Origin: Isoetes taiwanensis
Taxonomy: Eukaryota > Streptophyta > Lycopodiopsida > Isoetales > Isoetaceae
Length of the DNA: 64,000 bases
Direction: 5' to 3'
Assembly (NCBI GenBank): GCA_021234155.1
Contig: JAJEKV010000002.1
Span: forward strand, 23,946,942 to 24,010,941
Position 1 is the first letter of the stretch. Every line of letters starts with the position of its first letter. A program made the translations under genes and the position numbers. Shown here in pieces: positions 18,683-60,470 of this stretch. The notes under the pieces are model-generated. The model saw only the letters and a list, made by a program, of their open reading frames with translations, was not told the DNA's origin and did no database searches.

Positions 18683-18705
18683 TATCACAGGACAGGAACT
18701 AGTTA

Positions 18706-18717: not shown

Positions 18718-18718
18718 A

Positions 18719-21548: not shown

Positions 21549-23157
21549 TGTGACGCTCCCAGAATATATACGACCCCCGGCCGTATACATACGGGGACTT
21601 TCTCCTCCCATGGCAACCAGCTCGCCATGAGCAGGGCCCTCCGTTTGACCCGGGCCATCTACGAAGAGATGCTCGAGTGAAGGACACGGAGGTGTCATTC
21701 GGCCCACGCCTTCGATGGGCTCCTACGTCGCGGAAGCATGAGTACAAGGTTAGCACACAGCATAAATCATATATAAATAACCACCACGAAGGGTGGCGCA
21801 TCCATCCAAGTACCAACGACAAAGAATATACATCTAAACCTAAGAAAAACACCCCAAACCCCAGGTTCTACCCCGGTTCCGACTCCTGTGAGGATGGACT
21901 GACGGCTCGGTCTCAAGAGATGAGCAGACAGAGGTATAACCTGGCGTTGGCTGGCATAGAATATCGGCTAGGGTTGTCCACTCCATCCGCCCCTCCTGTG
22001 CACACTTTGCAGATGGGTCGATCCACGCTATGGCTTCGCTATAGCCTTCCGGAGACGCAGACTCAAGGTATCACCCTTTGAGTCTACTCCAGGGTTCATG
22101 ACGCCCCGGTCCGATGAGGCAGGTCAGGGAGGCGTCCCCTTCCAGGATCACAGTGGTTCCATGGGTGAGCTAGAGAATACGTGCCACATCAGCGACCCCC
22201 GCATCCGTACACGACTTACTCACCCTAAATCTACTCAAAGTGCAAGATGCTCCATACGGATCACACCTCTACACCCAGGGAGTGTCAGACCCATACCCGG
22301 CCCTCTACGTGACCGGCTATCAGGCCTAGCCCACTGTAGGAGTCTCAGGAGCCTTTTATGTTCGTGCAAGACCCCACCCCCACTTCACCACTGCGTCCCT
22401 TCTCTGGTGCTAAGCCAGACCATAGTGTCTACGACCCGGTGGTCTCTTGTACACAGGCCGCAACTAATGGGAACATTACAGGGCCCTATCTAGGAACATA
22501 CTATCATACATGAGCTCAGAGGTCTCTACCCCCCCTTTAAACCCCTGTTTAATGGAAGCTATCGAAATACTTCATAGATACATCGATCATTCCTTAACAG
22601 AGCACCATTCATAATTGAAATGTAATCCTACTTACCACAGAAGGGTTAATCTCAACAAAGGCAATCAGAAAAGAAGTACTATCCTACAATTCACAAGCTA
22701 AACTACTACTAACCCGTGTTTCGGCTGGAACCATTATCGTGGGGTGCTTCCATATTGCTGTAACTAGGGTGACAGCGACATCTAGTGGTTGTTCAGCGAT
22801 TTGGGGGAGTCAGCAACAGTCCTTGGGCGCTCAACTGATCCTTGGGCGCTCTGCTGAGTCGATTATGGTTGATATGGGGGTGGTGATCCACCTTAATGGT
22901 TCCAATTAGTATTCACCATGCTGGCCAATCGAGTTTGGCCAGGTGGCGCCTTCCCAAACCATAATTAGCTTAATTATCCTTCTTAAATATTAATTCCTTA
23001 ATTATAGGTTATTATCCTTAATGATTAAACTAGCTTAGCTAATTTAATCCCTTTTAGGACAACCCCCTAGGTTACCATACCCCATGGTGGCATATCTATA
23101 CTGGGTGACGTGTCAATGTATTTATACGTATACCGTATAAATACTTGGAACGTCACA
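21549..23157 (-). repeat. E2 3' LTR
   Basis: 1,609 bp with 7-bp terminal inverted repeat TGTGACG/CGTCACA. Near its sense 5' edge (23118-23144) is an 11-bp-arm palindrome that includes TATAAATA. The open frames inside it are not conserved as proteins. Confidence 0.95.
23118..23144. promoter_or_regulatory. Palindrome with TATA-like arms at the LTR edge
   Basis: Perfect 11-bp arms GTATTTATACG / CGTATAAATAC separated by 5 bp, repeated at 34445-34471 in the other E2 LTR and slightly altered in the E3 left LTR. It lies about 13 bp inside U3, too far upstream to be the core promoter of a long LTR, so a protein-binding site or integrase end signal is possible. Confidence 0.45.
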
Positions 23158-23171
23158 TTCTCCCCTCCTTA
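23158..23171 (-). other. E2 polypurine tract
   Basis: The minus strand reads AAGGAGGGGAGAA directly before the 3' LTR; the same tract occurs in E3 at 52537. Confidence 0.85.
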
Positions 23172-23785
23172 GAATTAATGCTGTCCTCAGCATTGGGGTT
23201 AGATACAAATATAGGACATGACATTATGAAGGAAGGTAATTCTTTATTTTTTTTTGAGGGTAATATATTAAAAAAACTTTTAAAGTTTAAAACAGTTTAA
23301 GCACCGAGGTGCATTTCAAATGATTGTCATAATCAAGAAGTTCAAGGATTGAAGTCCAATATCAACATCAGAGTAACAACAAAACAAGACGTGTAGACAA
23401 AATAGAACTGAAGAAGTCGGGCCATCAGCAACCCTCTAACATGGCAGGTCACGTACTGCTCACTGGCCTGCACATGTCAGTATATCAGTATATATAATTA
23501 GATTGTGGTTGAAGGGACCACCCCCTATAATAAATAAAAGAAAACCCTATCTACCAGGGAACCTATTATGTCTATGGTTTGCAATTCATTGCAGCATAGG
23601 GAATGGTGAAGTTCCCATTATAGCCGAGATGAACGCAGCCTAGTAACTATATGTTCTCCAAGCAAGTCGTGGTCAGGTCAACATTGACAGTACACCACGT
23701 CCTAGAGAACACAAATGTGATCTCATCATCGGTAACTATTATTACTTACGATGCAGCTACCCCTCTAGAGCGCTACTGTTGGCAA

Positions 23786-24370
23786 TCAAGCTTCCAAGCT
23801 TACCGCCGGCTGTGGGGTTGATAGCATCGTTGATGGTGCGGGATAGTGCTTCTCAAGGTCTATCTTCATCACCCAGGTAGCATCCTCAACTGGTAAGTGC
23901 TTCCACTTAACCAAGTATTGCAACATTTGAGTTCTTCTGGTTTGTTTATAAGCCCGATCAAGAAGAGCTTCAGGCACTATCTCGAGCTGCTCCTCTGTCA
24001 TTTCTAGGAGGGTTGGGGTATCCAAAACCTCCTCTGGATCAGGGGTGTGTTGTTTCAGAAGACTCGCGTGAAAGACCTTGTGGATCTTCAAGCGGGGCGG
24101 CAAATCCAAGCGATATGCCTGCTCTCCAACACGCTCAATAATTTTGAATGGCCCAGCCCATCTGGGTGCCAACTTCTTGCAGTTGCCAATCTTAAGCTTG
24201 GCTTGTTTTACCTTAATCTTAAGCCAAACTGATTCGCCCACCTGGAAAACGCGTGGGGTTCTGTGTTTATCGGCTACACTCTTCTGACGACTGCGTGCAG
24301 CTAATAAGTAACCACGAACTTCTTCGACCAGAGCTTGCATCTCCAAGAGGAGTTGTTGAGAAACCTCCAC
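23786..24370 (-). CDS. E2 integrase C-terminus with chromodomain
   Basis: 194 residues. The N-terminal half is the integrase C-terminal domain: [27 protein letters not shown] and KIHKVFHASLLKQ. The C-terminal half has [20 protein letters not shown] and [14 protein letters not shown], a chromodomain (Y-L-V-K-W-K...A-T-W). In chromoviruses this domain directs integration toward methylated-H3 heterochromatin. The near-identical E3 version is at 53141-53863. It is separated from the upstream integrase frame by a frameshift near 24.37-24.42 kb; in E3 that join is open. Confidence 0.9.
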   Translation of the reverse strand: MEVSQQLLLEMQALVEEVRGYLLAARSRQKSVADKHRTPRVFQVGESVWLKIKVKQAKLKIGNCKKLAPRWAGPFKIIERVGEQAYRLDLPPRLKIHKVFHASLLKQHTPDPEEVLDTPTLLEMTEEQLEIVPEALLDRAYKQTRRTQMLQYLVKWKHLPVEDATWVMKIDLEKHYPAPSTMLSTPQPAVSLEA

Positions 24371-25581
24371 TTTAGAAACGGGGTTATGCCATGTGTCTGG
24401 AGTAAGACATGATAACCATAATTTATCATAAAGGGAGACATTCTGGAAGACTCCTGCTTCATGCTGTTGTAAGCAAACTCGACCAGATAAATATAGTCAG
24501 CCCATTGTGATTGCTTACTCCACACATAACTTCGTAGCATATCCTCTATAATGCGATTGGTACGCTCTGTCTGACCATCTATTTGAGGATGATATGTCGT
24601 ACTCATAGCAAGCTTGGTCTGGATGGTGGCAAAGAAATCTTTCCAGAATGCACTTACGAATTTGGGATCCCTGTCAGATATAATGACTCGTGGCATTCCG
24701 TGTAATCTGAAGATCTCCTTGGCAAATAGCAGAGCAGTATTGAAGGCTGTATCCGTGGTACGACATGGCAAGAAATGAGCCATTTTCGACAATTTGTCGA
24801 CCACTACCATTAACGCATCATATCCACGGAGAGTACGTGGAAGGCCCACAATGAAATCCATGGTTATCACTTCCCACTTAGCGTTGGGCACATCCAGAGG
24901 TTGCAACTCGCCTGGAATCCTTAACTGCTCAGCTTTGGTTTGTTGACACACTTGACACTGCTTAATGTACCTGGCAATGTCCTTTTTCATAGAAGGCCAG
25001 AAATAGCTGGAGCGAATCTTAAAGTAGGTCTTCATAAAACCTGCGTGTCTAGCTATAGGGCTGTTGTGTGTGTCATGGAGAATGAGCTTACGTACTCCTG
25101 AAGTCTCAGGTACACACAACTTATCCTTGTAATATAACAAGTTGCCTTCTTTCTTATACGAACGGAAAGCTTCACGCTCCTTATCTGTGCGAGCTTCCTT
25201 AGCCAAACTATCCCAAACATTACGGAACTCGGGATCCGTGGCCAAGGTCTGTTCTATCTGTTTCCCAAACTCACTGGTGAGTGTAGAAATTGCATTACAA
25301 TGGGTTCGGGTTACCAAGGGATGGCGTGACAACGCATCCGCAACCACATTGTGCTTTCCAGGTTTATACATAATCTCAAAATCATACTCCTCCAGAAATT
25401 CCATCCATCTCCTCTGACGGAGGTTGAGATTCGGCTGGGTGGATAAATAACAGAGACTTTGATGATCCGTATCTAACTGGAATCTTCTACCAAGAAGGTA
25501 GTGTCTCCATATCCGCAGAGCACGGACAATGGCTAACAATTCCTGATCATGGGTAGGGTATCGCTGCTCCGTCTCGTTCAT
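24301..25581 (-). CDS. E2 RNase H and integrase
   Basis: The frame begins [20 protein letters not shown] (RNase H), with DTDHQSL and NVVADALSR. It continues with the integrase zinc finger (HDTHNSP...HAGF...CQVCQQTK), then the catalytic core [22 protein letters not shown] and [18 protein letters not shown], supplying D, D and E. The RNase H N-terminus is cut off by a TAA at 25588-25590, where E3 has a Ser codon. The C-terminus loses frame in the YGY block. Confidence 0.9.
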   Translation of the reverse strand: MNETEQRYPTHDQELLAIVRALRIWRHYLLGRRFQLDTDHQSLCYLSTQPNLNLRQRRWMEFLEEYDFEIMYKPGKHNVVADALSRHPLVTRTHCNAISTLTSEFGKQIEQTLATDPEFRNVWDSLAKEARTDKEREAFRSYKKEGNLLYYKDKLCVPETSGVRKLILHDTHNSPIARHAGFMKTYFKIRSSYFWPSMKKDIARYIKQCQVCQQTKAEQLRIPGELQPLDVPNAKWEVITMDFIVGLPRTLRGYDALMVVVDKLSKMAHFLPCRTTDTAFNTALLFAKEIFRLHGMPRVIISDRDPKFVSAFWKDFFATIQTKLAMSTTYHPQIDGQTERTNRIIEDMLRSYVWSKQSQWADYIYLVEFAYNSMKQESSRMSPFMINYGYHVLLQTHGITPFLKWRFLNNSSWRCKLWSKKFVVTY

Positions 25582-25905
25582 TTTCTTTTAATCATAGGCA
25601 ATAACCCTCCCCTCCTGCATTAGGACTCCACCGGTGGCAATCTTACTGGCATCCCTTGCCACTAATTTATCTTTCTCAGGATCAGGCAATGTGAGAACTG
25701 GTGCTGACGTTAAGGCATCTTTAAGCTGCTGGAAACTCCCCTAAACCTTTGCCTTCCAGTGCTCCATCCAATCCTTCACCTTTTCATGCTTTGTAAGATT
25801 TGTAAGAGGTGCTGCAATCTTTGCAAAATCCTTTACAAATTTCCGATAATATCCTGCTAACCCCAAGAAACTTCGGACCTCGGAAACATTACCTGGGATA
25901 GGTCA
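25582..25905 (-). pseudogene. E2 RT thumb / RNase H start with three stop codons
   Basis: Stops TGA at 25905-25903, TAG at 25743-25741 and TAA at 25590-25588 interrupt a stretch that is open in E3. Two of the three are G-to-A or C-to-T type changes, as expected from cytosine deamination in a methylated element. Confidence 0.85.
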
Positions 25906-27375
25906 GTCCCTCACTGCCTCTATCTTTGCCGGATCTGTAGCAATTCCCTCTGCAGAAATGACATAGCCCAAATAATCGACCTTCGGAGTGGCAAACTTGC
26001 ACTTAGAGAACTTGGCAAAGAGCTGATGACGTCTTAGCTTTTGTAGGGCCAATCTAAGATGTTCCTCATGCTCTTCCAGAGTCTTACTGTAGATGAAAAT
26101 GTCGTCGAAGAAAATAACAACAAAATCATCTAAGTATTGTCGGAAGACATCATTCATCAATCGCATGAAAGTTGCTGGGGCATTAGTGAATCCAAAAGGC
26201 ATAACGGTAAACTCATAATGCCCATATCTAGTGCGAAAAGCAGATTTATGGATGTCCTCCTCTTTAATCCTTATCTGATGGTATCCGGAGCGTAGATCAA
26301 TCTTTGAGAAATACTTGGCCCCTTGCAACTGGTCCATTAGATCATCTGCTCTAGGCAAAGCATAGCGATTCTTGATGGTATGCTTGTTGAGTTGCCGATA
26401 ATCAATACACATCCTCAAGGAGCCATCCTTTTTCTTAACAAAAAGAATAGGAGCGCCAAAGGGCGAAACACTAGGTCGAATGAAACCTAGGTTTAGTAAC
26501 TCCTGAAGTTGCTTCTTAAGCTCTGCCAACTCTGGGGGACTCATACGGTACGGGGCCTTGCTGGTAGGCTTAGTACCTGGCTCTAAAGCTATTTCACATT
26601 CTACCCCTCTAAAAGGAGGAAGCTTCTGGATCTCATCTGGGAAAAGATCACCAAATTCTCGGAGAAGATTAGCAATCCCTTCTGGTAAGGTATCGATTAC
26701 TTGCTTCTGTTTAGCATCTGACTCAATGGAGGCAAGTCTAATGACGCAGAGGAGCTTTTCCTTGCGTATAGCTTTATCTAACTGCCTGATGGACATAGAC
26801 TGCACAATAGGGTTGAATGGTTCACCTTTTATAGTCACGCGGGCTCCATTAGCTGCGTTGAAGGTAACTTCCCGTTTCTTGCAGTCTATGTTGGCCTTTG
26901 CAGATGCCAAGAATTCCATGCCAACAATGAGGTCGTATTTGCCAATATCCATTAACTCGGCACCCAAAGCAACTGGTGCACCTGGCAACTGCATCTTGAG
27001 ATTGATGCGACGGCCATAAGTATGTCTGATCTTACCACTGGCTAAAGTGACAGGCTTCGGTCGGGACCTCAAGGTTTCAAGCTGCAATACATTGGCCATT
27101 CTAGGAGAAGCAAAATTATGTGTACTTCCCGTATCCATAAGAATTACAAAAGGCTTACTGTCTACTTGACCTATGGTGGAAATGACAGCAGGCTGACTTT
27201 CAGCATTGCCGATTTCTATAGCTGCAAGGATATGAGACGCACCGTGAATGTACTCAGGAGCCTCCTCCTCGACAGGTAATGTTGACTCAAGATCGTCCCA
27301 ATCGAGGTCGGCCATGGCCAGCTGGGCAGTCTGCGTGACATAAGGACAATTCTGCATGAAGTGCCCGGGCCGCAT
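25903..27375 (-). CDS. E2 zinc knuckle, aspartic protease and reverse transcriptase
   Basis: Just upstream of and into the frame is a CCHC knuckle ([14 protein letters not shown]). Protease follows with [14 protein letters not shown], a retropepsin-type D-T-G site, and VGMEFL. RT follows with [52 protein letters not shown] and the catalytic FFDDIFIYS, then [17 protein letters not shown]. Both catalytic Asp residues remain; the first aromatic of the Y-x-D-D box is Phe, as is common in Ty3 elements. The frame ends at a premature TGA. Confidence 0.93.
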
Positions 27376-27411
27376 GCACCTGTAGCATGCCTTATCTCGG
27401 CGGAGCTGTTC

Positions 27412-27966
27412 TCAAGCCTCTTTGGGAATAGACTGTAAGAGGTTCCGAACTTCTTTACCGACATTGTTCGGTTTATCGGGCGTGCTGAAGGTGACTTTCT
27501 TTTCCTGGCGGCCGTAAGAGTTCTGCTGAGAGGGCCCCGGACTTGGTGAGCTGGGTTTGTAGGGTGTGGACGGCCGTGGCTGCGAGTAAGGAGCAGGACG
27601 CGGATACTGGTTCCTTGGTGTGTCCTCTTCGAGGCTCAGTGCCTTAGCCTCAGCCTCTGCAACTGATTTCAGGTCTATAGCCTTAACCATTCGTTTAATT
27701 GATGGGGCCAACCCTTCAATGTAGCCCTCCACCGCCCTCTTTTCATTCATACCTGGTATATACAGCCTCAAGCGCATAAATTCATCAGTGTAAGCCTGAA
27801 CCGACATACCCTTCTGCTCTAACCTGTAGAAGGTCTGGATTTGTTGGCATTTGTGCGCACAAGGCACATAATGCGACTTAAAGGCTTTGGCAAACTTCTT
27901 AAACTTGCACCTGCTTCTATCCAGATGCTTGGCTCTGGCATAGCCCTTCCACCACAACATATACAA
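27412..27966 (-). CDS. E2 gag, C-terminal part
   Basis: From WWKGYARAKHLDRSRCKFKK this matches E3 gag almost residue for residue through FYRLEQ.MSVQAYTDEFMRL, YIEGLAPSIKRMV and the proline-rich tail. The N-terminal part of gag does not precede it on this strand: it lies inverted at 27957-28385. The apparent start codons upstream of LWWKG come from the inverted DNA. Confidence 0.88.
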   Translation of the reverse strand: MYMLWWKGYARAKHLDRSRCKFKKFAKAFKSHYVPCAHKCQQIQTFYRLEQKGMSVQAYTDEFMRLRLYIPGMNEKRAVEGYIEGLAPSIKRMVKAIDLKSVAEAEAKALSLEEDTPRNQYPRPAPYSQPRPSTPYKPSSPSPGPSQQNSYGRQEKKVTFSTPDKPNNVGKEVRNLLQSIPKEA

Positions 27967-28385
27967 GAAGACGGACCGGAGTTACCTCCGCTACCGCCTA
28001 GTCCACCTACACAGCAGCCATCTCCACCTGAAACCAGCCCTGTACTTGCACAGAGGAGACCCCGTTCTAAACGTCGTCGGAGTTCCTCTAGGGATAGCGC
28101 CACCTCCTCACAATCAGCTACTTCTGTGTCCTCTGAGTCGTCGGTATCAGCTAGTGACCATGCAAAGCGCCGGGATAAGGAGTACCGCAAGACGGTTGAT
28201 ACAGCCATAACTAGTATATGGAAGAATAGGAAACTGGCCCAGTTTGATGGGAAATCTAGAGGCGGACTGAATGCAGAGTCCTGGTTGGACGAAATGAAGG
28301 AGTTTGGGAAGTCCTATGGCATGACAGAAAAGGATACAGGAAAGGTTGCCACCACAAACCTTACAGGAACTGCCCGTATTTGGAA
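27957..28385 (+). pseudogene. E2 gag N-terminal segment, inverted
   Basis: The plus strand reads the gag segment from PPQHIQEDGPEL through the Ser/Arg-rich stretch and FDGKSRGGLNAESWLDEM to LTGTARIW. In E3 the same segment reads on the minus strand in line with the rest of gag. The inverted block is bounded by CCACCA at one end and the inverted TGGTGG/TTGG at the other, short inverted repeats that are also present in E3. The first about 45 codons of gag found in E3 are absent. Confidence 0.9.
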
Positions 28386-28571
28386 TACAAGAAAAAGTAC
28401 AATGGCAAAGATCCTTATTACAAGTGAAAACTGTCATTTCATTAAGGTTCAGTACATTGGTAGTGACAAAAGTTGACACAAGGATATAATACAAGGATAA
28501 GTATTATACATTAGACATTTGAAGTTCAACTCACATATAGCATGAAAAGAACAAAACTGAGGAGACCGGGC

Positions 28572-29037
28572 CTAGGGGTTCGCAAATGGGTACAAGATGG
28601 AGTAGCGAACACTTTCACGTACAGCCCTGACGAGCTTGTATCGTGCCCAGGCCTGGACAATAACAGGTTGGTAGTCTAGCATTGGGCTAATAATAAGGAG
28701 ATTAAAGAGCCTCCTTAATGCATAGAAGATCTGCCACAAGTGATCGTTGGCATCCTCGAAAGCTTCGTGCCTTGACATGTCCCAATAGTCCCATGTGCGG
28801 CGAAGAGTTTGCTTCAGGTCCTCAAAGGCCCGTTCTCTGAGAATGTTAACTACCTCCATCCCCTTGGCTGGATCATAGGGCTCCCCTGGTGGTGCGGGTT
28901 CCCCTACCTCGTAACCTTCGTCCCATTCCGGGTACTCCCCATACCTTTGGCCATAATCCTGGTCGGGCGGCCCTGGGTCATCCCTCCTTATCTAATCGGT
29001 AATTCTCTCTTCATATTCTTCGAGTGTCTCGTCTGCA
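28572..29037 (-). CDS. E2 ORF-d, unknown accessory protein (internal stop)
   Basis: The homologue of E3 ORF-d (58154-58690). It reads DETLEEYEERITD, a TAG where E3 has Gln, then an acidic/proline segment, then the best-conserved part: RRTWDYWDMSRHEAFEDAND and LWQIFYALRRLFNLLIISP, ending YPFANP. I recognise no domain. Composition suggests a soluble alpha-helical protein. It lies immediately 5' of gag. Both copies have ...TTGCAG just before DETLEE/EETLEE, so a spliced exon boundary is possible there. Confidence 0.6.
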
Positions 29038-29340
29038 AGATGATAGAAATGAATATAGGATATTGAACAATTTCGTTATACTCTAAACTCCAATAGATAG
29101 AAGAACGCATCATGGAAGAGAACAATTTTAATTGTATTCATTGAGACAGTAGTCACAATTGATAAGAAGATGGTATATCATACTATAAAATGGCTAAAGA
29201 AAATGCCAAACCAAAATTCTACAACTATACGCAATACAAAATGCGTAATACAATTATCTAAGAGCTAGGTCCCCCCTCTTCATCCATAGGCCGAGGAGGT
29301 GGTGGCGGCGGTCGGTGTCGTAGCAGGGTCACCCCTGGGT

Positions 29341-30657
29341 CTACTGTGGCAGCGCAATGGAGGCAGCCTCTGGCGGATAGGCAACAACCAATGGGGCCGC
29401 TGTAAGGAGCTTCATACTCATCCAGGGTGCAATGTCCTGTCCCAAGGCCGCCAGGGCGAGATCCCGTCGTACGAGTACATAAGTAAACGTACGATAGGGA
29501 AGCTTATTGTGCCCGGCCAATGTGGAAAGAGCACAGAGAGTCCACCATGAAGCTTCGGCCTCCGGCCCTAAGTCTCGGGCTATAAAAAGAACTTGCCCCT
29601 GTCGAAAAGCTGATAAGAAGAAGCGAGTAAGGTGGTTTCCCAATACCTTCCCTTGCGGGGTCTCTGACGTGGCCACCTCCTTGTCCAAGTCCATAGGGAC
29701 TTCTTCTTCCTTGAGTTCTTGCTGCTCTTCCTTCAAATGAGCAGGATTATGGTATAGATCCTCTCCCTCTTCATCCGAACCGGAGGGAATCTCGACCATA
29801 TTAATATTTGGGACATGAGGTCCCATAGCTGTAAAGGCATCCGGTGAAGGCTGAGAGGGCGGATCCTGCATCACCAGTTCCCGAAGCCGTAGCAAAGTCT
29901 CAGCTGGCTCTAAGGTCTCCTGGTGGAATTGGAGTAGCTGCTGCACCTCCTGAGGAAGCTCAATAGGAGCAAAGTCGATGAAGTCATCCATACAATACTC
30001 CGCTAATTCATAAAGTACATGGTCCTTGCGCCGGCGCTTAAACCCGGCCACCATGTGATAGGTGCAGATGATATCATCCAAGAGAAGATATTCTTGCCCT
30101 TGGTGATACACAACTGGAAGGGCGTCTAGCCCTGACAAGCGTGCAGCTTGTTCCCGGCGTGGTGGCATCTCCTCTGCCAACTGCTTCCAACGGGCGAAGT
30201 CACCCATACCTATATGCTCATCTTCTTCCTCCTCGGAAGATTCAGGAAGTTTGCCTTTCTCTGCCGGTAATATCTCATCCTCAACATACTGATCCATGAG
30301 GATGGCTAGGGCAAAGGCAACTTCAAGATATTGTCGCCTCTGATGCTGCACAACGGGCAGGTGCTTGCCCCATCTAAGCTTCCCTTTCAACACATCATAC
30401 GCGTGGGTGTCACCCCCTAGCATATCCCGGACCACATCCCGTTCTAGATACAACTGGGGAGGATCCCCAAGAGGAATACACAAAGGAAGCATCTCCTCTG
30501 TATAAAACTCTAAAAATCCGGCATAATCTGGGTGCCGCTGCATATTGGTGATGAGGTCAAGGCGCTGACATAGCAAGGGCCGTAACAGGTCGAAGGGCAC
30601 TTGCGGATCCCAATGCTCTCCATCCTGGTACCATGCAAGTAGGTCGGTGGCTGCCAT
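29341..30657 (-). CDS. E2 ORF-c, unknown 438-residue accessory protein
   Basis: An intact frame from ATG at 30657 to TAG. N-terminus: LLAWYQDGEHWDPQVPFDLL and LITNMQRHPDYAGF. Mid-protein acidic runs (SSEEEEDEH, PSGSDEEGEDLY and a Glu/Lys-rich stretch) flank a block ending DDFIDFAPIE. The C-terminal third has LTRFFLSAFRQGQVLFIARD, EASWWTLCALSTLAGHNK and VRRDLALAALG. E3 encodes a clear homologue of 462 residues with the same block order but many substitutions. I know no family with these motifs. The acidic tracts would suit binding to basic proteins such as histones, which is speculation. No signal peptide or membrane segment is evident. Confidence 0.75.
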   Translation of the reverse strand: MAATDLLAWYQDGEHWDPQVPFDLLRPLLCQRLDLITNMQRHPDYAGFLEFYTEEMLPLCIPLGDPPQLYLERDVVRDMLGGDTHAYDVLKGKLRWGKHLPVVQHQRRQYLEVAFALAILMDQYVEDEILPAEKGKLPESSEEEEDEHIGMGDFARWKQLAEEMPPRREQAARLSGLDALPVVYHQGQEYLLLDDIICTYHMVAGFKRRRKDHVLYELAEYCMDDFIDFAPIELPQEVQQLLQFHQETLEPAETLLRLRELVMQDPPSQPSPDAFTAMGPHVPNINMVEIPSGSDEEGEDLYHNPAHLKEEQQELKEEEVPMDLDKEVATSETPQGKVLGNHLTRFFLSAFRQGQVLFIARDLGPEAEASWWTLCALSTLAGHNKLPYRTFTYVLVRRDLALAALGQDIAPWMSMKLLTAAPLVVAYPPEAASIALPQ

Positions 30658-30835
30658 GGGCGCTGGAAGGGAGGAGGAAGGAAGAAAAACAAATGTAACA
30701 AATGAAATGAAACTTTGAAGATCCTTTTTAACCCCTTATGCTGACGTCAGCATTTTCGTACTTATTACAAAATAAAAGGTAAGTTTTTATTAAATATCAA
30801 GAAATATTTACAATGCAAATACCCTGCAAAATTTG

Positions 30836-31504
30836 CTAAGGATGCTCTCCCCGAATCCTGCGGGCGAGGGCTAAATCCTTTGGCATTATGGTGACCCTCT
30901 TTGCGTGGATCGTGCAAAGATTGGCATCACCAAAGAGTGCCACCAGGTAGGCTTCCGCAGCCTCTTGGAGCGCCAAGATGGCAAAAGTCTGGAAGCGGAG
31001 GTCGGTTTTAAACTCTTGGGCGATCTCCCGAACCAACCTCTGGAAGGGGAGCTTCCGTATCAGAAGTTGCGTGGACTTCTGAAACTTGCGGATCTCCCGT
31101 AAGGCAATAGTGCCGGGTCGGTACCGGTGGGGTTTCCTTTGTGGAGCAGGGTTGGGAGGCGGCCCCCTTTGTGCAGGTACAGTCTTGGCTCCAACAACTG
31201 GTCGGGACGCATCCACCCGCTCCTGCCTCCGACTGGAGCTCACGTTCTTCCCAAAAGCCCCGACAGCCCTCAACTTTTCCTTGTACTGGCTGCCGGACTT
31301 TCGGGCTACGGATTTCCTCCGGTGCTTAACGGTCTTATGCTCCGTTGGGGTTGGGCCCTGCCCACTCCCTGATCCCCCATCGCCCTGCTGATCCGGCTGC
31401 TCTTGCCGAGCCTTCTCCTCCTTTTCCCGTTGGATCCTCTCCCTCTTCCTTGAACTCCTAAGCTCTCCTAAGGTCTTCCTCGACCTTTCTATACCGACGC
31501 TCTA
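30836..31504 (-). CDS. E2 histone H3 homologue encoded in the retrotransposon
   Basis: The frame is open from a TAG at about 31507 to the TAG at 30836. The last about 100 residues form a complete H3 core: [90 protein letters not shown]. It aligns with canonical plant H3 without gaps, and loop 1 is of canonical length, so it is not CENH3-like. The N-terminal region is long and diverged but has a VARKSGSQ piece reminiscent of the H3 K9/S10 context. No ATG lies in frame upstream of the core; the only Met is in IMPKD. The frame overlaps the 3' end of ORF-a by about 47 nt. Expression may therefore need frameshifting, splicing or a non-AUG start. E3 keeps a homologue at the same place. Confidence 0.93.
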
Positions 31505-32093
31505 CAATGCGGCGAAGGAGTTCTGCATGGTATCGATCGGGCCGCTGGCTCATATCCATCTGAATCGTCGTTAAATAATCTATGCTGATGTCGGGGATCT
31601 CTCCCCACGTGAAGCTCTGGGAAGCTTCATGCCATTGGTATGGGGGAATCTCGATGGCCCTGCCATCTATGACGGCGACCCCATCCCCCAGGTACCGGTA
31701 CTCCCTACCTCGAGCCGCCGTATCGGCTCGTTCTATCTCTCTGTGGTCATCCTCCCTGGCCAAGTTTCTGATACGGTCGGCCTCTTTCCTTATGTCCTCC
31801 TCCTCGGTGTGTCCTTCACATTCGGGAGGGTAGAACTTAATCAACATCATGACCAAGTCAGGTTGCTCGGCCATGGTGTAAGGAAGCTGTCGGAGATTGA
31901 GCCTGACCAAGAACGGCTCCGAGTAATGATAAATGGGATAGGGGATCCTATCATTGTTCTCGAATCGGTTTACCAACTCGTCCAAAAGTATATCAATGAA
32001 GGCAGGGTCAGTAGCCATATGCTGGGCGATCAAAGCATAAATCTCTGCTATAGTGAGGGTAGTGGGGTCCACAGTACTCTTGGTGTTGGCCAT
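31458..32093 (-). CDS. E2 ORF-a, unknown 211-residue accessory protein
   Basis: First ORF after the 5' LTR, ATG at 32093, TAG at 31458. The N-terminal half has [20 protein letters not shown] and [20 protein letters not shown]. The middle is charged ([20 protein letters not shown]), and the C-terminal half has [12 protein letters not shown] and [15 protein letters not shown], ending in a basic helix [19 protein letters not shown]3 has a diverged homologue at 61096-61771 sharing the FPYPIFHF-type and FSWNED-type blocks. No known domain recognised. Its 3' end overlaps the histone H3 frame in the +1 phase, so it may supply the start for an ORF-a/H3 fusion by frameshift. Confidence 0.75.
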
Positions 32094-32370
32094 AGCTATG
32101 GCGCTGAGGTCTAGGGGAACAGGCGGTAGGGCGCTTGCGGCTAGGGAAGTGGTAGTGAAGGCGCTAGGGTTAACGAAGAACCAGGGTGGAAGAACAGGGT
32201 CAGGTCCGGCGGCTATGGCAGGCGTGGGATCTAGCGGGCGGAGGCGCTTTAAGGCAGGGAGGAAGCAAAAAGTTAACGGCCTTTAACCCTAAAAAGTTTT
32301 AAAAGTTTGCTTATTAATTTTTTTATTTTTTTTTTTTAAACATTATGCGGCGGAAAATACGCGCGGAAAT

Positions 32371-32562
32371 ACGGTTGGGCGCCGACGGCATTCTACGCAC
32401 TCCCACCGCGACTGGGGGTCGACGAAAGGCAAGGGGCGCCCGGGTTGACTTTCGGGCGCGGGTTGACTCGCGACGGTACGGTCGGGCGCCGACAGCATTT
32501 TAGGCTCTCCCACCGCGACTGCAAGGCGACGAAATTCAAGCGGCGCCCGAGTTGACTTTCGG
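32371..32562. repeat. GC-rich tandem repeat in the E2 leader
   Basis: A unit of about 106 bp spacing, containing GGGCGCCGAC, CTCCCACCGCGACTG and GTTGACTTTCGGGC, occurs twice (about 32377-32458 and 32483-32562) between the PBS and ORF-a. It is much richer in GC than its surroundings. A structured leader with packaging or translation control roles is possible. Confidence 0.7.
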
Positions 32563-32857
32563 GCCTTTCCGTGACCATTTTTCCGCCAACGACGACTGTC
32601 CTAGGGTATTTGGGGTACGCCCGATCCAATGGAACCATTTTCTCCTTCATCTAAACTACCTACAAAAATTTATAACCCCTCCAAACTTGGGCCTCCAGTT
32701 GCCCTAAACTTATTAAGACTTACACCTACTACATCAACCTAGCACAGAATCAAACATCAGAGAGCTAAACAATCACACTAGCGTAACTTCTACCTAACTA
32801 CCGAACTAACGAGTTAGGGTTTGGTCAGTGCTATGATTTCGAGCAATCGAAATCACG

Positions 32858-32869
32858 GCTCTGATACCA
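32858..32869 (-). other. E2 primer binding site
   Basis: The minus strand reads TGGTATCAGAGC one base from the 5' LTR, the initiator Met-tRNA primer site. Confidence 0.95.
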
Positions 32870-32870
32870 C

Positions 32871-34484
32871 TGTGACGCTCCCAGAATATATACGACCCCC
32901 GGCCGTATACATACGGGGACTTTCCCCTCCCATGGCAACCAGCTCGCCATGAGCAGGGCCCTCCGTTTGACCCGGGCCATCTACGAAGAGATGCTCGAGT
33001 GAAGGACACGGAGGTGTCATTCGGCCCACGCCTTCGATGGGCTCCTACGTCGCGGAAGCATGAGTACAAGGTTAGCACACAACATAAATCATATATAAAT
33101 AACCACCACGAAGGGTGGCGCATCCATCCAAGTACCAACGACAAAGAATATACATCTAAACCTAAGAAAAACACCCCAAACCCCAGGTTCTACCCCGGTT
33201 CCGACTCCTGTGAGGATGGACTGACGGCTCGGTCTCAAGAGATTAGCAGACAGAGGTATAACCTGGCGTTGGCTGGCATAGAATATCGGCTAGGGTTGTC
33301 CACTCCATCCGCCCCTCCTGTGCACACTTTGCAGATGAATCGATCCACGCTATGGCTTCGCTATAGCCTTCCGGAGACGCAGACTCAAGGTATCACCCTT
33401 TGAGTCTACTCCAGGGTTCATGACGCCCCGGTCCGATGAGGCAGGTCAGGGAGGCGTCCCCTTCCAGGATCACAGTGGTTCCATGGGTGAGCTAGAGAAT
33501 ACGTGCCACATCAGCGACCCCCCGCATCCATTACCCGACTTACTCACCCTAAATCTACTCAAAGTGCAAGATGCTCCATACGGATCACACCTCTACACCT
33601 GGGGAGTGTCGGACCCATACCCGCCCTCACGTGACCAGGGCCATCGGGCCTAGCCCCATTGTAGGAGTCTCGGGAGCCTTTTATGTTCGTGCAAGACCCC
33701 ACCCCCACTTCACCACCCTGCGTCCCTTCTCTGGTGCTAAGCCAAACCATAGCGTCTACGACCCGGTGGTCTCTTGTACACAGGCCGCAACTAATGGGAA
33801 CATTACAGGGCCCTATCTAGGAACATACTATCATACATGAGCTCAGAGGTCTCTACCCCCTTTTAACCCCCCGTTTAATGGAAGCTACCAAATACTTCAT
33901 AGATACATCGATCATTCCTTAACAGAGCACTATTCATAATTGAAATGTAATCCTACTTACCACAGAAGGGTTAATCTCAACAAAGGCAATCAGAAAAGAA
34001 GTACTATCCTACAATCACAAGCTAAACTACTACTAACCCATGTTTCGGCTGGAACCATTATCGTGGGGTGCTTCCATATTGCTGTAACTAGGGTGGCAAA
34101 TGACGCCTAGTGGTTGTTCAAATGATTTTGGGGAGTCGAAAGAATGATCCTTGGGCGCCAATCGCTCCTTGGGCGCTCTGCTGGGTCGATTATGGTTGAT
34201 ATGGGGGTGATGATCCACCTTAATGGTTCCAATTAGTATTCACCATGCTGGCCAATCGAGTTTGGCCAGGTGGCGCCTTCCCAAACCATAATTAGCTTAA
34301 TTATCCTTCTTAAATATTAATTCCTTAATTATAGGTTATTATCCTTAATGATTAAACTAGCTTAGCTAATTAAATCCCTTTTAGGACAACCCCCTAGGTT
34401 ACCATACCCCATGGTGGCGTATCTATACTGGGTGACGTGTCAATGTATTTATACGTATACCGTATAAATACTTGAAACGTCACA
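32871..34484 (-). repeat. E2 5' LTR
   Basis: 1,614 bp, nearly identical to 21549-23157 for most of its length. Differences cluster at about 33525-33720 and 34090-34170, mostly at CAG/CTG sites. Confidence 0.95.
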
Positions 34485-40910: not shown

Positions 40911-40919
40911 ACATAACTA

Positions 40920-50905: not shown

Positions 50906-52536
50906 TGTGACGCTCCCTGAACATATACGACCCTCGGACGTATACATACGGGGACTTTCCCCTCCCATGGCGACCAATTCGCCACGAGCAGGGCCCTCCG
51001 TCTAACTCGGGCCATCTATAATAAGACGCTCAAGTGAAGGACACAGAGGGGTCATTCGGCCCACGCCTTCAATGGGCTCCTACGTCGCGGAAGCATGAAT
51101 ACAAGGGTTAGCACACAGCATAACTCACATATAAATAACCACCACGAAGGGTGGCACATCCATCCAAGTACCAACGGCAAAGAATATGCATCTAAACCTA
51201 AGAAAACACCCCAAACCCCGGTTCTACCCCGGCTCAGACTCCAGTGAGGATCGACTGACGGCTGGGCCTCAAGAGATCAGCAGACCGAGTCTTGGCATGG
51301 CGTTGGCTGGCATAGAACATCGGCTAGGGTTGTCCACTCCATCCGCCCCTCCTGTGCACACTTTGCAGATGGGTCGAGTCACGCTATGGCTTCGCTATAG
51401 CCTTCCGGAGACGCAGGCTCGAGGTATCACCCTGCTGAGCCTACTCCAGGGTTCATGACGCCCCGGTCCGATGAGGCAGGTCAGGGAAGCGTCCCCTTCC
51501 AGGATCACAGTGGTTCCATGGGTGAGCTAGAGGAATACGTGCCGCATCAGCGACCCCCGCATCCATACCCGACTTACTCACCCTAAATCTACTCAAAGTG
51601 CAAGGTGCCCCATACGGGTCACACCTCTACACCCAGGGAGTGTCAGACCCATACCCGGCCCTCTACGTGACCGGCTATCGGGCCTAGCCCACTGTAGGAG
51701 TCTCAGGAGCCTTTTATGTTCGTGCAAGACCCCACCCCCACTTCACCACTGTGTCCCTTCTCTGGTGCTAAGCCAGACCATAGCATCTACGACCCGGTGG
51801 TCTCTTGTACACAGGCCGCATTATTGGGATAATACAGGGCTCTATCTAGGAGCATACTACAACATATGGGCTCAGAGGTCTCTACCCTCCCCGTAATCCC
51901 CCATCTCGAGAGTGCTAACTAAGCAGAGAACTATCATTCCATCCTTCGAGAGCAAAACCAGAATCAATATATAAAGAGAACTTACCTTTTCAACCAAGGG
52001 TTAGTTCCTACGAATAAAAGCACAGAGAGAACAGACAAGACAACACACAAGTGCCCAAAAGGGGCGCTACCCTAGAATTCTCAACTACACTAACCACCCA
52101 CCTGTATTCCTGCTCGACCCGTTATCGTTTGGTGCCTCCATCCCTCTGAAACTCGATGCTCAGCTCTGATCACACAGGTGCAAGTACTTGGGCAAGTTGG
52201 CGCTCAGCTCAATCACAAGGTAGGCGCTCAGCTCAGGTCGATTATGGTGGATATGGGGGTGGTGATCCACCTTATTGGTCCAAAATAGCATTCACCATGC
52301 TGGCCAATCGGGTTTGGTTAGGTGGCGCCTTCCCAAGGGGTATTTAGCTTAATTATCCTTTATTAATAATAATCCCTTAAATGTAGGTTATTATCTTTAA
52401 CAATTAAATTAGCATAGCTAATTTAATCCTTTTTAGGTCAACCCCCTAGGTTACCATACCCCATGGTAGCGTATCTATACTGGGTGACATGTCAATATAT
52501 TTATACGTATACCATATAAATACTTGGAACGTCACA
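50906..52536 (-). repeat. E3 3' LTR
   Basis: 1,631 bp, TGTGACG...CGTCACA, clearly the same LTR family as E2. It is followed by the TTCTCCCCTCCTT polypurine complement. The 50874-51900 portion aligns with E2 LTRs; the segment about 51890-52260 is more diverged. Confidence 0.95.
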
Positions 52537-53140
52537 TTCTCCCCTCCTTAGAATTAATGCTGTCCTCAGCATTGAGTTAGATATAGATATATTAAAAAAA
52601 CACATTATAAAGGGAGATAATTCCTTATTTCCAAAAGTAATATATTAAAACTTTAAAGTTTCAAACAGTTCAAGCACTGAAGTGCATTTCAGATGATCAT
52701 CATAATCAAAAGTTCAAGGACCAAGGTCCAATATCAACATTAGAGTAGCAACAAAAGAAGACGTGTAGACAAAATAAAACTTGAAGAGTTCGGGTCATCA
52801 GCAACCCTCTAACATTTGCGGTGTCACGCATCTTCAATCGGCCCGCACATGTCAGTATATCAGTATATATAATTAGATTGTGGTTGAAGGGACCACCCCC
52901 TTATAGTAAAAAAAAATAAACTCTATCTACCAGGGGACCTAACATGTCTATGGTTTGCAGTTCATTGTAGCATAGGGAATGGTCAAGTTCCCATTGTAGC
53001 CGAGATGAACGCAGCCTATGACCTATATGGTCTCATAGCAAATCGTGGTCAGGTCAACATTGACGGTACACCACGTCCTAGAGAACACAAAGGTGATCTC
53101 ATCATCGGTAAGGATTATTACTTACGATGCATCTACCCCT

Positions 53141-55738
53141 CTAGAGCCTACTCTTGGCAATTAAGCTTCCAAGCTTACCGCCGGGTGCGGGGTTGATAGC
53201 ATCGTTGATGGTGCGGCCTTGAGATTCCCGCATGAAGTCCGGATAGTGCTTGTCAAGGTCTATCTTCATCACCCAAGTAGCATCCTCAACTGGTAAGTGC
53301 TTCCACTTAACCAAGTATTGCAACATTTGAGTTCTTCTGGTTTGTTTGTAAGCTCGATCAAGAAGAGCTTCAGGCACTATCTCCAGGTGCTCCTCTGTCA
53401 TTTCTAGGAGGGTTGGGGTATCCAAAACCTCCTCTGGATCAGGGGTGTGTTGCTTCAGAAGACTCACGTGAAAGACCTTGTGGATCTTCAAGCGGGGCGG
53501 CAAATCCAAGCGATATGCCTGCTCTCCAACACGCTCAGTAATTTTGAACGGTCCAGCCCATCTGGGTGCCAACTTCTTGCAGTTGCCAATCTTAAGCTTG
53601 GCTTGTTTTACCTTAATCTTAAGCCAAACTGATTCACCGACCTGGAAAACGCGTGGGGTTCTGTGCTTATCAGCTACACTCTTCTGACGACTACGTGCAG
53701 CTAATAAATACCCACGAACTTCTTCGACTAGGGCTTGCATCTCCAAGAGGAGTTGTTGAGAAACCTCCACTTTAGAAACGGGGTTATGCCATGTGTCTGG
53801 AGTAAGACATTGATAACCATAGTTGATCATAAAGGGAGACATCTTGGAAGATTCCTGCTTCATGCTGTTGTAGGCGAACTCGACCAGATAAATATAGTCA
53901 GCCCATTGTGATTGCTTACTCTACACATAACTGCGTAGCATATCCTCTATAATACGATTGGTATGTTCTGTCTGACCATCCGTCTGAGGATGATATGCTG
54001 TGCTCATAGCAAGCTTGGTCTGGATGGTGGCGAAGAAATCTTTCCAGAATGCACTTACAAATTTGGGATCCCTGTCAGATACAATAACTCTTGGCATTCC
54101 GTGCAACCTGAAGATTTCCTTTGCAAATAGCAGGGCGGTGTCGAAGGCTGTGTCGGTGGTACGACATGGCAAGAAATGAGCCATTTTCGACAATTTGTCG
54201 ACCACCACCATCAATGCATCATATCCACGGAGAGTACGTGGAAGGCCCACAATGAAATCCATGGTTATTACTTCCCACTTTGCGTTGGGCACATCCAGAG
54301 GTTGCAACTCTCCTGGAACTCTTAATTGCTCAGCCTTGGTTTGTTGGCACACCTGACACTGCTTAATGTATCTAGCAATATCCTTCTTCATCGAAGGCCA
54401 AAAATAACTGGAGCGGATCTTAAAGTAGGTCTTCATAAAACCTGCATGTCCAGCTATAGGGCTGTTGTGTGTGTCATGGAGAATCAGCTTACGTACTCCT
54501 GAAGTCTGAGGTACACACAACTTATCCTTGTAATATAATAAGTTGCCCTCTTTCTTATAGGAACGGAAAGCTTCGCGTTCTTTATCTGTACGGGCTTCCT
54601 TATTCAAGCTATCCCACACATCACAGAACTCGGGATCTGTGGCCAAGGTGTGCTCTATTTGCTTTCCAAACTCACTGGTGAGCGTGGAGATTGCGTTACA
54701 ATGGGTTCGGGTTATCAAGGGATGGCGTGACAACGCATCCGCAACCACATTGTGCTTCCCAGGCTTATACATAATCTCGAAGTCATATTCTTCCAGAAAT
54801 TCCATCCATCTTCTCTGACTGAGATTGAGATTTGGCTGGGTGGATAAATAACGGAGACTCTGATGATCCGTATCCAACTGAAATCTTCTACTAAGAAGAT
54901 AGTGTCTCCATATCCGCAGAGCACGGACAACGGCTAACAGTTCCTGATCATGGGTAGGGTATCGCTGTTCAGTGTCGTTCATTTTCTTTGAATCATAAGC
55001 AATAACCCTCCCCTCCTGCATTAGGACTCCACCGGTAGCAATCTTACTAGCATCCGTTGCCACTAGCTTATCCTTTTCAGGATCAGGTAATGTAAGGACT
55101 GGTGCAGACGTTAAGGCATCCTTAAGCTTCTGAAAACTTATCTGGACTTTTGCTTTCCAATATTCTATCCAATCCTTCACCTTCTCGTGCTTTGTGAGAT
55201 CAGTAAGAGGTGCGGCCATTGTTGCAAAATCCTTAACAAATTTGCGATAATATCCTGCTAGTCCCAAGAAACTCCGGACTTCCGAAACATTACCCGGAAT
55301 AGGCCAATCCCTTACTGCTTCTATTTTCGCTGGATCTGTGGCAATTCCCTCTGCTGCCACCTTGGGAGTGGCAAACTTGCACTTAGAGAACTTGGCAAAA
55401 AGTTGGTGACGCCTTAACTTTTGTAGAGCCAACCTAAGATGTTGCTCATGCTCCTTCAAAGTTTTACTATAGATGAGAATGTCGTCGAAGAAAATAACAA
55501 CAAAATCATCCAAATATTGGCGAAAGACGTCATTCATCAACCGCATGAAAGTTGCAGGGGCATTAGTTAATCCAAAAGGCATAACGGTAAACTCATAATG
55601 CCCATATCTAGTGCGAAAAGCAGACTTATGGATATCCTCCTCCTTTATCCTTATCTGATGGTATTCGGAGCGTAAATCAATCTTTGAGAAATATTTGGCC
55701 CCTTGCAACTGGTCCATTAGATCATCCGCCCTAGGCAA
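53141..55738 (-). CDS. E3 reverse transcriptase, RNase H, integrase and chromodomain
   Basis: 605 codons (55738-53921) then, after a single TAG at 53923-53921 where E2 has Trp, about 255 more codons in the same frame. [26 protein letters not shown] and the catalytic FFDDILIYS. Just after RT an in-frame loss of about eight residues removes the DYLGYVIS block. RNase [17 protein letters not shown] with catalytic Asp, [16 protein letters not shown]. Integrase: HHCC finger, [40 protein letters not shown]-terminal chromodomain [15 protein letters not shown]. It is the better preserved pol of the two copies. Confidence 0.93.
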
Positions 55739-56862
55739 AGCATAGCGATTCTTGATGGTATGCTTATTGAGCTGCCTAAAAAATCAACACATCCTCAAGG
55801 AGCCATCCTTTTTCTTAACAAAAGGATAGGGGCAAAAAGGCTAAAACACTAGGTCGAATGAAACCTAGGTTTAGTAACTCCCGAGTTGTTTCTTAAGCTC
55901 GCCAACTCGAGGACTCATACCTGCACGGGGCCTTACCGGGTAGGCTTAGTACCGGTTCTAGAGCGATCTCACATTCCACCCCTCCTAAAGGAGGAAGCCA
56001 CGAATCTCATCCGAAAAAGATCGCTAAATTTCTGGGAGAAGGTTAGCAATCCCTTCCGCAAGGTGTCAACTACTTGTTTCGTTTTAACATCCGACTCAAC
56101 GGAAGCAAGTACGATAACGCAGAGGAGCTTTTGCTTCATGTGATAGCTTTATCTAGTTGCCGGGTGGACATAGACCGCATGATAGGGTTGAATGGTTCAC
56201 CTTTTATCGTTACGCGGGCTCCATTAGCTGCGTTGAAGGTAACTTCTCTCTTCTCGCAATCTATATTGGCTTTTGCAGATGCCAAGAATTCCATACCAAC
56301 AATGAGGTCGATTTGCCAATATCCATTAATTCGCACCCATAGCCACCGGTGCGCCGTGCAATCCTGATCTTAAGGTTGATGCGGCGACCATGAGTATGTC
56401 TAACCTTACCAATCGGGCTAAGGTGACAGCCCTGGTCGTGATCTTAGGGTTTCCGGTTTGTAGGGACTGGGCCATTCGAGGAGAAGCAAAATTATGTGTA
56501 CTCCCGTGATCCATAAGAATTACAAAAGGCTTACCTTGCCTACTTGGCCTATGGTGGAAATGACAAAGGTGACTTTTCAAAGATTGCCGGTTTCTATAGC
56601 CGCAAGGATATGAGACGACCGTGAATGTACTCGGGAGCGCCCTCATCGCCAGGTAGTGTTGACTCAAGATCGCCCCAATCGAGGCTCGCCATGGCTAGCC
56701 GGGCAGTCCGGGTAACATATGGACAATTCTCGCATGAAGTGTCCAGCCTCATACACTGTAGCATGCCTTATCTCGACGGAGCTGTTCTCTCGCCTCTTTA
56801 GGAATGGATCAGAAGAGGTTCCAACCTCCTTACCGGCATTGTTCTCGCTTTATCCGGGCGTG
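55739..56862 (-). pseudogene. E3 zinc knuckle, protease and RT N-terminus, heavily frame-broken
   Basis: The equivalent of the open E2 frame at 26300-27400, but broken by many 1-2 base indels. Recognisable islands remain: the protease-adjacent [20 protein letters not shown] at 56136-56336 and a [10 protein letters not shown] piece near 56500. The breaks concentrate at positions where E2 has CTG or CAG. Consensus error is at least as likely as real decay. Confidence 0.75.
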
Positions 56863-57906
56863 CTAAAGGCTTACTTTCTTCTCCTGGGACAGCCGCAGAC
56901 GAAGTTCTTGGCTGGGAGGGCCCCGACTTGGCTTAACGGGTTTATAAGGTATGGACGGCCGTAGCTGCGAATAAGGAGCAGGACGCGAATACTGATTCCT
57001 TGGTGTGTCCTCCTCGAGGCTCAATGCTTTAGCCTTGGCTTCTGCAACTGATTTCGGGTCGATGGCCTTAACCATCCGTTTGATCGATGGTGCCAAACCC
57101 TCAATATAGCCTTCCACTGCCCTTTTCTCATTCATACCAGGTACATACAGCCTCAGGCGCATAAACTCATCCGTGTAAGCCTGTACGGACATACTCTTCT
57201 GCTCCAACCTGTAGAAAGTCTGGATCTGTTGGCATTTACGTGCACGGGGCACATAATGCGATTTGAAGGCCTTGGCAAACTTTCTGAAGTTGCATCTACT
57301 CCTGTCCAGATGTTTGGCTCTGGCATAGCCCTTCCACCAAATACGGGCAGCTCCGGTAAGGTTTGTGGTGGCAACCTTTCCTGTATCCTTCTCTGTCATG
57401 CCATAGGACCTCCCGAACTCCTTCATTTCGTCCAACCAGGATTCGGCATTCAATCCGCCTCTAGATTTCCCATCAAACTGGGCCAATTTCCTATTCTTCC
57501 ATATACTAGTTATGGCTGTATCAACTGTCTTGCGGTACTCCTTATCTCGGCGCTTTGCATGGCCACCAGATGATGCGGACGATTCAGATGACACTGAAGT
57601 GGCAGACTTTGAGGAGGTGGCACTGTCTCTAGAGGAGCTCCGTCGGCGTTTAGACTGGGGCCTCTTTTGCGCAGGTACAGGGCTGGTTTGTGGTGGGGAC
57701 GGCTGCTGTGTAGGTGGACTAGGCGGCAACGGAGGTAACTCCGGTCCGTCTTCTTGTACATGTTGTGGTGGGTTAGCATGCAACACATAGGCCTGTAACT
57801 CGCCTAGCTGTCTTTTCATTAGCATCAATTCTTGTTCGGGTGTTAACCGACTGGCGTTTGAGGGTGTCTGCCAGGCGGCATTGCGTGCACCGTCTATATT
57901 AAACAT
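56863..57906 (-). CDS. E3 gag, essentially complete
   Basis: ATG at 57906. N-terminus MFNIDGARNAAWQTPSNASR, then a helical stretch TPEQELMLMKRQLGELQAYV, a proline-rich linker, a Ser/Arg-rich basic segment, and the capsid-like core FDGKSRGGLNAESWLDEM, WWKGYARAKHL, FYRLEQKSMSVQAYTDEFMR and YIEGLAPSIKRMVKAI. The zinc knuckle expected next lies in the broken region downstream. This copy gives the correct order and strand for gag and shows E2 gag to be rearranged. Confidence 0.92.
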   Translation of the reverse strand: MFNIDGARNAAWQTPSNASRLTPEQELMLMKRQLGELQAYVLHANPPQHVQEDGPELPPLPPSPPTQQPSPPQTSPVPAQKRPQSKRRRSSSRDSATSSKSATSVSSESSASSGGHAKRRDKEYRKTVDTAITSIWKNRKLAQFDGKSRGGLNAESWLDEMKEFGRSYGMTEKDTGKVATTNLTGAARIWWKGYARAKHLDRSRCNFRKFAKAFKSHYVPRARKCQQIQTFYRLEQKSMSVQAYTDEFMRLRLYVPGMNEKRAVEGYIEGLAPSIKRMVKAIDPKSVAEAKAKALSLEEDTPRNQYSRPAPYSQLRPSIPYKPVKPSRGPPSQELRLRLSQEKKVSL

Positions 57907-58153
57907 ACGATGATGTAAGAAAAAGTACCATAACAGTAAGTGTCACAACAAGGTCATTTTAGGTAGTATCGAGAAACACAAAGTGAACACGAAAAAGGAC
58001 GGAAGATTCAAATTACAAGCGAAGTAACGGTTACATTAAAGAAGTTCATACTGAACACAGTTATAAACTTATAGTTATATAATACATAAAACCTGATACA
58101 GGCCATTTCCTTATTTCATACTGAACATAGGAACACAAACTGGAGGATCCGGC

Positions 58154-58690: not shown

Positions 58691-58837
58691 TCAAAACTAT
58701 ATTGGCATTACGTATTGATTGATACAATAGACAGTAATCATAAAGGATAACACATCACGAGTGATAACCATGGCTTAAGACATTGCCAATGAAAATTTTA
58801 TAGTGATTTCAGAATGCAAAATACATAATACAATCAT

Positions 58838-60226: not shown

Positions 60227-60470
60227 GAGGGTTGAAGGCGCGAAGGGGGAGGAAAGGAGGCGCTGAAGCAAGAAAGAAAAATGAAACCCTAATGGCCAAA
60301 AAGGGGTTTTATACTTTTTGGCACGTTTCCCAAAATTATTATTAAAATTATTATGTACTTAATAATCTATTTCCACAAAAAAAATTACTTTTATATTCAC
60401 AACCCAAAAATGGGACTAGTACATGGATAAGTTACAAAAATTTTTACAACAGAAAAAGACGGTCGTTTCA

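Follow-up and report, generated by a model that had tools for sequence, protein, structure and literature searches.

Plant Ty3/gypsy retrotransposons can carry captured accessory domains, such as the AlkB-type 2-ODD of Phalaenopsis and the plant mobile domain. In the part of the survey available to us, 15 non-canonical domains passed the filter in 121 angiosperm genomes, and no histone is among those named (PMC9289625). Histones of non-cellular genomes are known from elsewhere. The bracovirus protein CpBV-H4 has been reported to join host nucleosomes and to act through its tail (PMC5423620), and further histones are encoded by giant DNA viruses such as Marseilleviridae, reviewed in a main text in which the words 'retrotransposon' and 'retrovirus' have 0 occurrences (PMC9145170). 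We found no retrotransposon-encoded core histone in the literature searched, subscription papers and preprints lying outside it, and the main text of the Isoetes taiwanensis genome paper uses 'histone' 0 times (PMC8566536).

We analyzed a window of 64,000 nucleotides of I. taiwanensis DNA (the window being the whole stretch of DNA that was analyzed). The sequences of the copies examined demonstrate that a chromovirus lineage represented there carries a plant histone H3 as the C-terminal part of a predicted fusion with an orphan protein, ORF-A. So far as the available parts of the sources describe them, the known systems resemble this one in different respects. Like the plant Ty3/gypsy elements with captured domains, it is an LTR family to which a conserved gene of host origin has been added, but the domain captured here belongs to a core histone, which is joined to an orphan protein and accompanied by two further orphan genes (PMC9289625). 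CpBV-H4 is also a histone from a mobile or viral genome; it is, however, an H4 of a wasp polydnavirus, whereas the Isoetes protein is an H3 of a plant retrotransposon, with an N-terminal fusion and an undetectable canonical tail (PMC5423620). The histones of giant viruses are likewise non-cellular, but these viruses are not retroelements, and the Isoetes element has H3 only, close to the H3 of its host (PMC9145170). With chromoviruses such as the Tcn1-like elements it has in common the reverse transcriptase, an integrase with C-terminal chromodomain, the LTRs and the primer site, and it differs from them by ORF-A::H3, ORF-B and ORF-C, which lie between primer site and gag (PMC2864245, PMC3350952). 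With this family, a core histone joins the genes known to be captured by retroelements.

The first copy, E1, is a complete LTR chromovirus of 12,936 bp (21549..34484; the features of E1 and of the second copy, E3, are on the minus strand unless stated otherwise), with TG..CA ends, reverse transcriptase, integrase and chromodomain. An earlier note on this DNA had placed an H3 inside a complete LTR element, and this is borne out by LTRs 96.3% alike in BLAST (5' LTR at 32871..34484, 3' LTR at 21549..23157, for which the BLAST alignment was extended 4 bases beyond; K2P 0.035), by the 5-bp target duplication GTTCT and by the chromodomain. The primer binding site TGGTATCAGAGC (32858..32869), read from the sequence, is presumably of the plant initiator-Met tRNA type. 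In minus-strand orientation, the order of E1 from its 5' end is LTR, primer site, ORF-A, H3, ORF-B, ORF-C, gag-pol, chromodomain and LTR. Its pol region comprises protease and reverse transcriptase (25906..27375; PF08284, PF00078), RNase H and integrase core (24304..25581; PF17917, PF17921, PF00665) and the integrase C-terminus with the chromodomain (23789..24370; PF24626, PF00385). The assignment of the element to the chromoviruses holds as well: reverse transcriptase, integrase and chromodomain were identified by Pfam in the order PR-RT-RH-INT followed by the chromodomain, all between the LTRs, and the chromodomain match (PF00385, E 6.2e-8) exceeds the Pfam cut-off. Relatives of the E1 pol are 46-55% identical among the matches listed; several bear PITA labels, which we take to denote Pinus taeda, and others are from angiosperms. 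E1 is damaged. The 3', capsid part of its gag (27415..27966; PF19259, PF03732) lies on the minus strand, but 435 bases of the 5' part (27949..28383, plus strand, with 90% complementary arms) are inverted relative to E3, and ORF-A and H3 lie in separate frames. Some 200 bases beyond the 5' end of E1 is a tandem repeat of about 30 bases (34692-35008).

The H3 frame of E1 (30839..31501, with the stop codon at 30836-30838) is made up of a linker or tail (31501-31136) and a core of 99 residues (31135-30839) at the end of the open frame. The Pfam Histone domain PF00125 matches it with E 3.2e-41, and among solved structures the best match is to an H3.3, with E 9e-53 across 112 residues, in agreement with the C-terminal H3 core of about 100 residues that had been read from the letters. 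The core is identical to a plant H3.3 core at 84 of 99 positions, and to the commonest animal core in the comparison set at 81 of 99. No ATG is found in this frame ahead of the core.

ORF-A (31461..32093) is an N-terminal orphan module of 211 aa that is continuous with H3 in a single frame in other copies. Among the 150 best genome matches to the E1 H3, 60 place it within a frame that stays open for 400 aa or longer, the match itself being free of stops in 52 of these, and the commonest length of the surrounding open frame is 420 aa (10/150). The long frames in the fetched copies read ORF-A, then a linker, then H3; a frame of at least 400 aa is present in 18 of 20 long stretches, picked with open frames favored, and in 8 of 16 short stretches. 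Because ORF-A and H3 are found in one frame in many copies, the predicted product is ORF-A::H3 and the split in E1, with its missing ATG, would be a lesion. The claim that the element encodes its own H3 therefore stands for the core, which is kept, and falls for a free H3, since the predicted product is a fusion. A programmed +1 frameshift linking ORF-A to H3, which E1 and E3 had suggested, was dropped as many genome copies hold both in one frame.

Two further orphan frames follow. ORF-B (29344..30657) has 438 aa from its ATG, within an open frame of 464 aa in E1 and of 448-582 aa in other matches, and ORF-C (28575..28991, 139 codons) is conserved between E1 and E3. Neither ORF-A nor ORF-B has a match beyond chance in Pfam and PDB, an ORF-B search of 5.8 billion proteins gave no relative among the 7,998 candidates that were scored, and no relatives were found in viral contigs and prokaryote contigs. 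The predicted folds of ORF-A (pLDDT 45.8) and ORF-B (pLDDT 31.7) are too weak to use, and to call ORF-A an 'adaptor' would be a guess. In the protein search with the H3 (best 120 of 7,983 scored), the tail was unmatched, with a best E of 4.4, and 116 of the 120 matches listed contain at least two H3 copies.

The I. taiwanensis assembly is described in the genome paper as 1658.30 Mb in 204 scaffolds and 909 contigs (PMC8566536), and our searches covered 1,658,258,908 bases in 1110 contigs. The E1 H3 query gave 9,551 loose candidates, of which the best 150 were scored, every one with E <=9.4e-75. A canonical H3 query (best 150 of 9,031 candidates) retrieved 15 canonical genes at E <=3.4e-79, followed by a wide gap down to E 1.6e-54, beneath which lie the other 135 of the 150 scored matches. 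We read these 135 as putative element copies because all 16 that were fetched carry the residues of the element H3. The corresponding search for H4 yielded 69 loose candidates; there were 43 matches, of which 16 span the full length at 99-100%. H4 is thus not amplified (69 versus 9,031 candidates), which argues that the surplus of H3 is not a general duplication of histones, H2A and H2B being outside the search. A pool of H3-like genes of this size in a lycophyte matters for H3 annotation and for chromatin studies there.

The earlier note had proposed looking genome-wide for H3 cores near chromovirus LTRs and had named family members lacking H3 as evidence against its claim. We fetched 20 stretches of about 10 kb each (L021-L040) from the H3-ranked lists, with open frames favored. 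All 20 have ORF-A on the upstream side of H3 and ORF-B on its downstream side, and LTR sequence is found in 19, ORF-C in 16, gag in 16 and reverse transcriptase in 13. ORF-B is open for more than 480 aa in just 3 of these H3-selected stretches, so they are not to be taken as functional or whole elements. A query with ORF-B itself (best 96 of 7,681 candidates scored, 63 without internal stop) provided 10 copies missing from both H3 lists, for which the expected H3 site was fetched. H3 core sequence is present in all 10, so that no member without H3 was met in either sample, but nine are damaged in H3 by a frame change, a gap or truncation, the most truncated retaining 18 H3 codons in the 431 bases fetched; a single copy, L061, has a full-length and clean H3. 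The concern that all copies derive from one chance insertion is answered by their presence on many contigs and by distinct lineages inside one clade.

E3, the second copy in the window (50906..63926, by BLAST), has the same gene order as E1. Its 5' LTR match ends at base 63926 and probably extends past the window end; the 3' LTR alone lies entirely inside, and the LTR K2P of 0.093 applies to the portion within the window. The ORF-B (60226-58841) and ORF-C (58690-58157) of E3 are conserved relative to E1. The H3 homologue reported for E3 is indeed at the matching position (about 60480..60939, from comparison with E1), but frame changes break it. The two copies align over 22845-32870 and 52223-62500, and their divergence climbs steeply from the chromodomain to ORF-A: dS is 0.16 in the chromodomain, 0.4 in RH-INT, 0.6 in PR-RT, 0.9 in gag and 2.9 in ORF-C, and is saturated in ORF-B, H3 and ORF-A. 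This gradient fits a history in which recombination homogenized the 3' halves, and the 5' halves would be older. A dispersed 2-kb repeat, about 91% alike in its two copies (11354-13379 and 48834-50873), stops in one of them about 30 bases before the E3 LTR.

The claim that the family captured an H3 gene is upheld by a tree in which 27 element H3 rows, including that of E3, form one clade on one side of a 99/96 branch, with bootstrap values not fully settled, and the six outside rows (host, plant, algal and animal H3) lie on the other. Four derived residues, T86, I89, A107 and L124, are fixed in every one of the 35 distinct element cores and absent from all 11 distinct host cores. The single clade and these residues together establish, on sequence grounds and within the copies examined, that H3 was captured once, and they rule out independent captures by E1 and E3. 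Other positions are shared with the host. L90, which like H87 is a residue of the plant H3.3-type gene, occurs in 35/35 element and 11/11 host cores. E77, found in 11/11 host and 25/35 element cores and absent from other H3 in the comparison set, was dropped as an element-derived residue since host H3 genes carry it too, and its presence in both fits a capture that took place inside this plant lineage. At position 87, F87 is found in 29/35 element cores and in E3, and H87 in the other 6/35; among the fetched host genes, H87 is seen in the one nearest plant H3.3 (L009; 1/11 cores). Counting H87 as an H3.3-type trait, we infer that the source was probably an H3.3-type gene of the host lineage.

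In the core, synonymous change between E1 and E3 has reached saturation (pS 0.81) at a pN of 0.13, and the differences at codon positions 1, 2 and 3 number 20, 9 and 56. A codon model rejects omega 1 (2dlnL 124, p 8.3e-29), omega itself being unmeasurable for this pair because the distance runs to infinity; neutrality is also rejected for the tail (p 2.4e-6), ORF-A and ORF-B. Pairwise comparison of the 35 distinct element cores (595 pairs from the H3-ranked sample, 168 with infinite dS) gives median omega values of 0.02-0.05 in each of six finite-dS bins. Within L021-L040, where ranking by H3 similarity and favoring open frames bias omega downward, the median is lowest for the core (0.029, 20 copies), followed by ORF-C (0.054, 13), reverse transcriptase (0.059, 11), ORF-B (0.088, 19), ORF-A (0.094, 20), gag (0.107, 12) and the tail (0.232, 20). 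The 10 ORF-B-selected copies together with E1 have a median omega of 0.13 and a pooled pN/pS of 0.225, decay after insertion included. Hence dN/dS across the copies examined is not near 1, as it would be had the core not been retained; these rates demonstrate purifying selection on the H3 core while the family moved, with decay in copies that appear dead.

We picked 28 core positions as structural, DNA or histone contacts, which we take to be contacts with DNA, with H4, between H3 and H3, or structural, and each is kept in 33-35 of the 35 element cores. They include R63, K64, R69, R72, R83, K115 and T118, presumably DNA contacts, and C110, H113, R116, D123, L126, I130, K56 and K79. Elsewhere the core has changed: E59 to Q or D in 26/35, E105 to G or S in 35/35, G102 to A in 33/35 and Y54 to F in 29/35. 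Together with the fixed residues at 86-89 and 107, these changes may alter contacts with H4 or chaperones. The tail is different. It is strongly basic (net +17 over 122 aa) and its QYK motif is kept in 28 of 29 element tails, but a canonical H3 N-tail is undetectable: for a profile of 11 element tails, 3,354 of 20,000 shuffles reach the score of the canonical tail. Conserved mimicry of K4 or K9 was rejected, as 1,062 of 5,000 and 631 of 5,000 shuffles score as high, and an ARKS context is present in just 15 of 29 tails.

Taken together, the kept DNA-wrapping and H4-binding residues, the lack of a free modifiable tail and the fused module make a fusion built into nucleosomes the best reading. 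According to this reading, ORF-A::H3 would enter the nucleus and pair with H4 of the host, the putative partner since H4 is not amplified in the genome. Host H3 chaperones would then build it into nucleosomes, thereby placing the ORF-A module on chromatin, and such nucleosomes would contain an H3 with neither a free N-terminus nor a conserved K4/K9/K27 context. Transposon silencing works largely via marks on the H3 tail. The most likely uses, both drawn from general knowledge, would be that normal repressive H3 marks become impossible so that new copies stay transcribable, or that the fusion offers a docking platform to the integration complex of the element, which itself bears a chromodomain. 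We give about even chances to this explanation as a whole, a captured and conserved ORF-A::H3 built into host nucleosomes with an anti-silencing or docking use. That a large family would create an element-specific type of nucleosome lacking a modifiable H3 tail, and so shift where or whether the host silences the element, is a more tentative proposal that we consider possible but doubtful. A building block of host chromatin could come from a mobile element, as the fused H3 with its conserved core suggests. An element with its own H3 minus that tail, kept over the time needed for synonymous saturation, makes the rewriting of chromatin by a transposon through its own histone directly testable.

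Alternatively, the protein may act as a decoy or dominant negative that titrates away H4 or the H3 chaperones of the host and so loosens host silencing. The kept core is compatible with such a role, as are the derived and fixed positions 86 and 89, which adjoin the chaperone-selecting patch. A pure sink, however, would have no need of the seven presumed DNA contacts, each kept in 33-35 of 35 cores, and we consider the decoy unlikely. Somewhat less likely again is that the fusion packages or shields the RNA or cDNA of the element in the particle or the pre-integration complex, with ORF-A as the particle-binding part. Here the position of the H3 gene upstream of gag, beside other orphan genes, and the strongly basic tail are set against the fact that H3 by itself does not make nucleosomes and the finding that H4 is not amplified in the genome (H2A and H2B being outside the search); the residues kept at the presumed H4 and H3 interfaces likewise point to work with H4 of the host.

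It is very improbable that H3 is a functionless captured passenger carried by chance: the damage in nine of the 10 copies selected through ORF-B is what any old element family would display, but the core is kept between E1 and E3 despite saturated synonymous sites, omega is low at all finite distances (in a biased sample) and has a median of 0.13 in the ORF-B-selected sample, and H3 is kept in every copy examined. Equally remote is a CENH3-like histone steering the element to centromeres, for although the element is a chromovirus and A107 and the T111 of E1 resemble CENP-A (residues that we assume to be CENP-A-like), T111 is not fixed among element cores, and the core, 84/99 identical to plant H3.3, aligns to H3 with no insertion in loop 1, while we take a longer loop 1 and a divergent core to be the hallmarks of CENH3. 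The preferred reading thus remains an ORF-A::H3 that would be built into host nucleosomes.

The window contains several other repeats and coding traces. A Copia-type element at 13604-19346 has two LTRs that are 96% alike and is flanked by a short target duplication, and LINE-like open frames at 45511-47331 have a reverse transcriptase match and a weak endonuclease match. A 410-base direct repeat (35460-35869 and 36527-36936; 98.8% alike, 1,067 apart) may be a short non-coding LTR element, and an inverted repeat (40911-41080 and 41262-41431) has arms of 170 bases that are 95% complementary. Finally, an ADAMTS-type Thrombospondin type 1 domain, which would be unusual for a plant, is found on the minus strand at 3033-3395 and may be an exon of a host gene.
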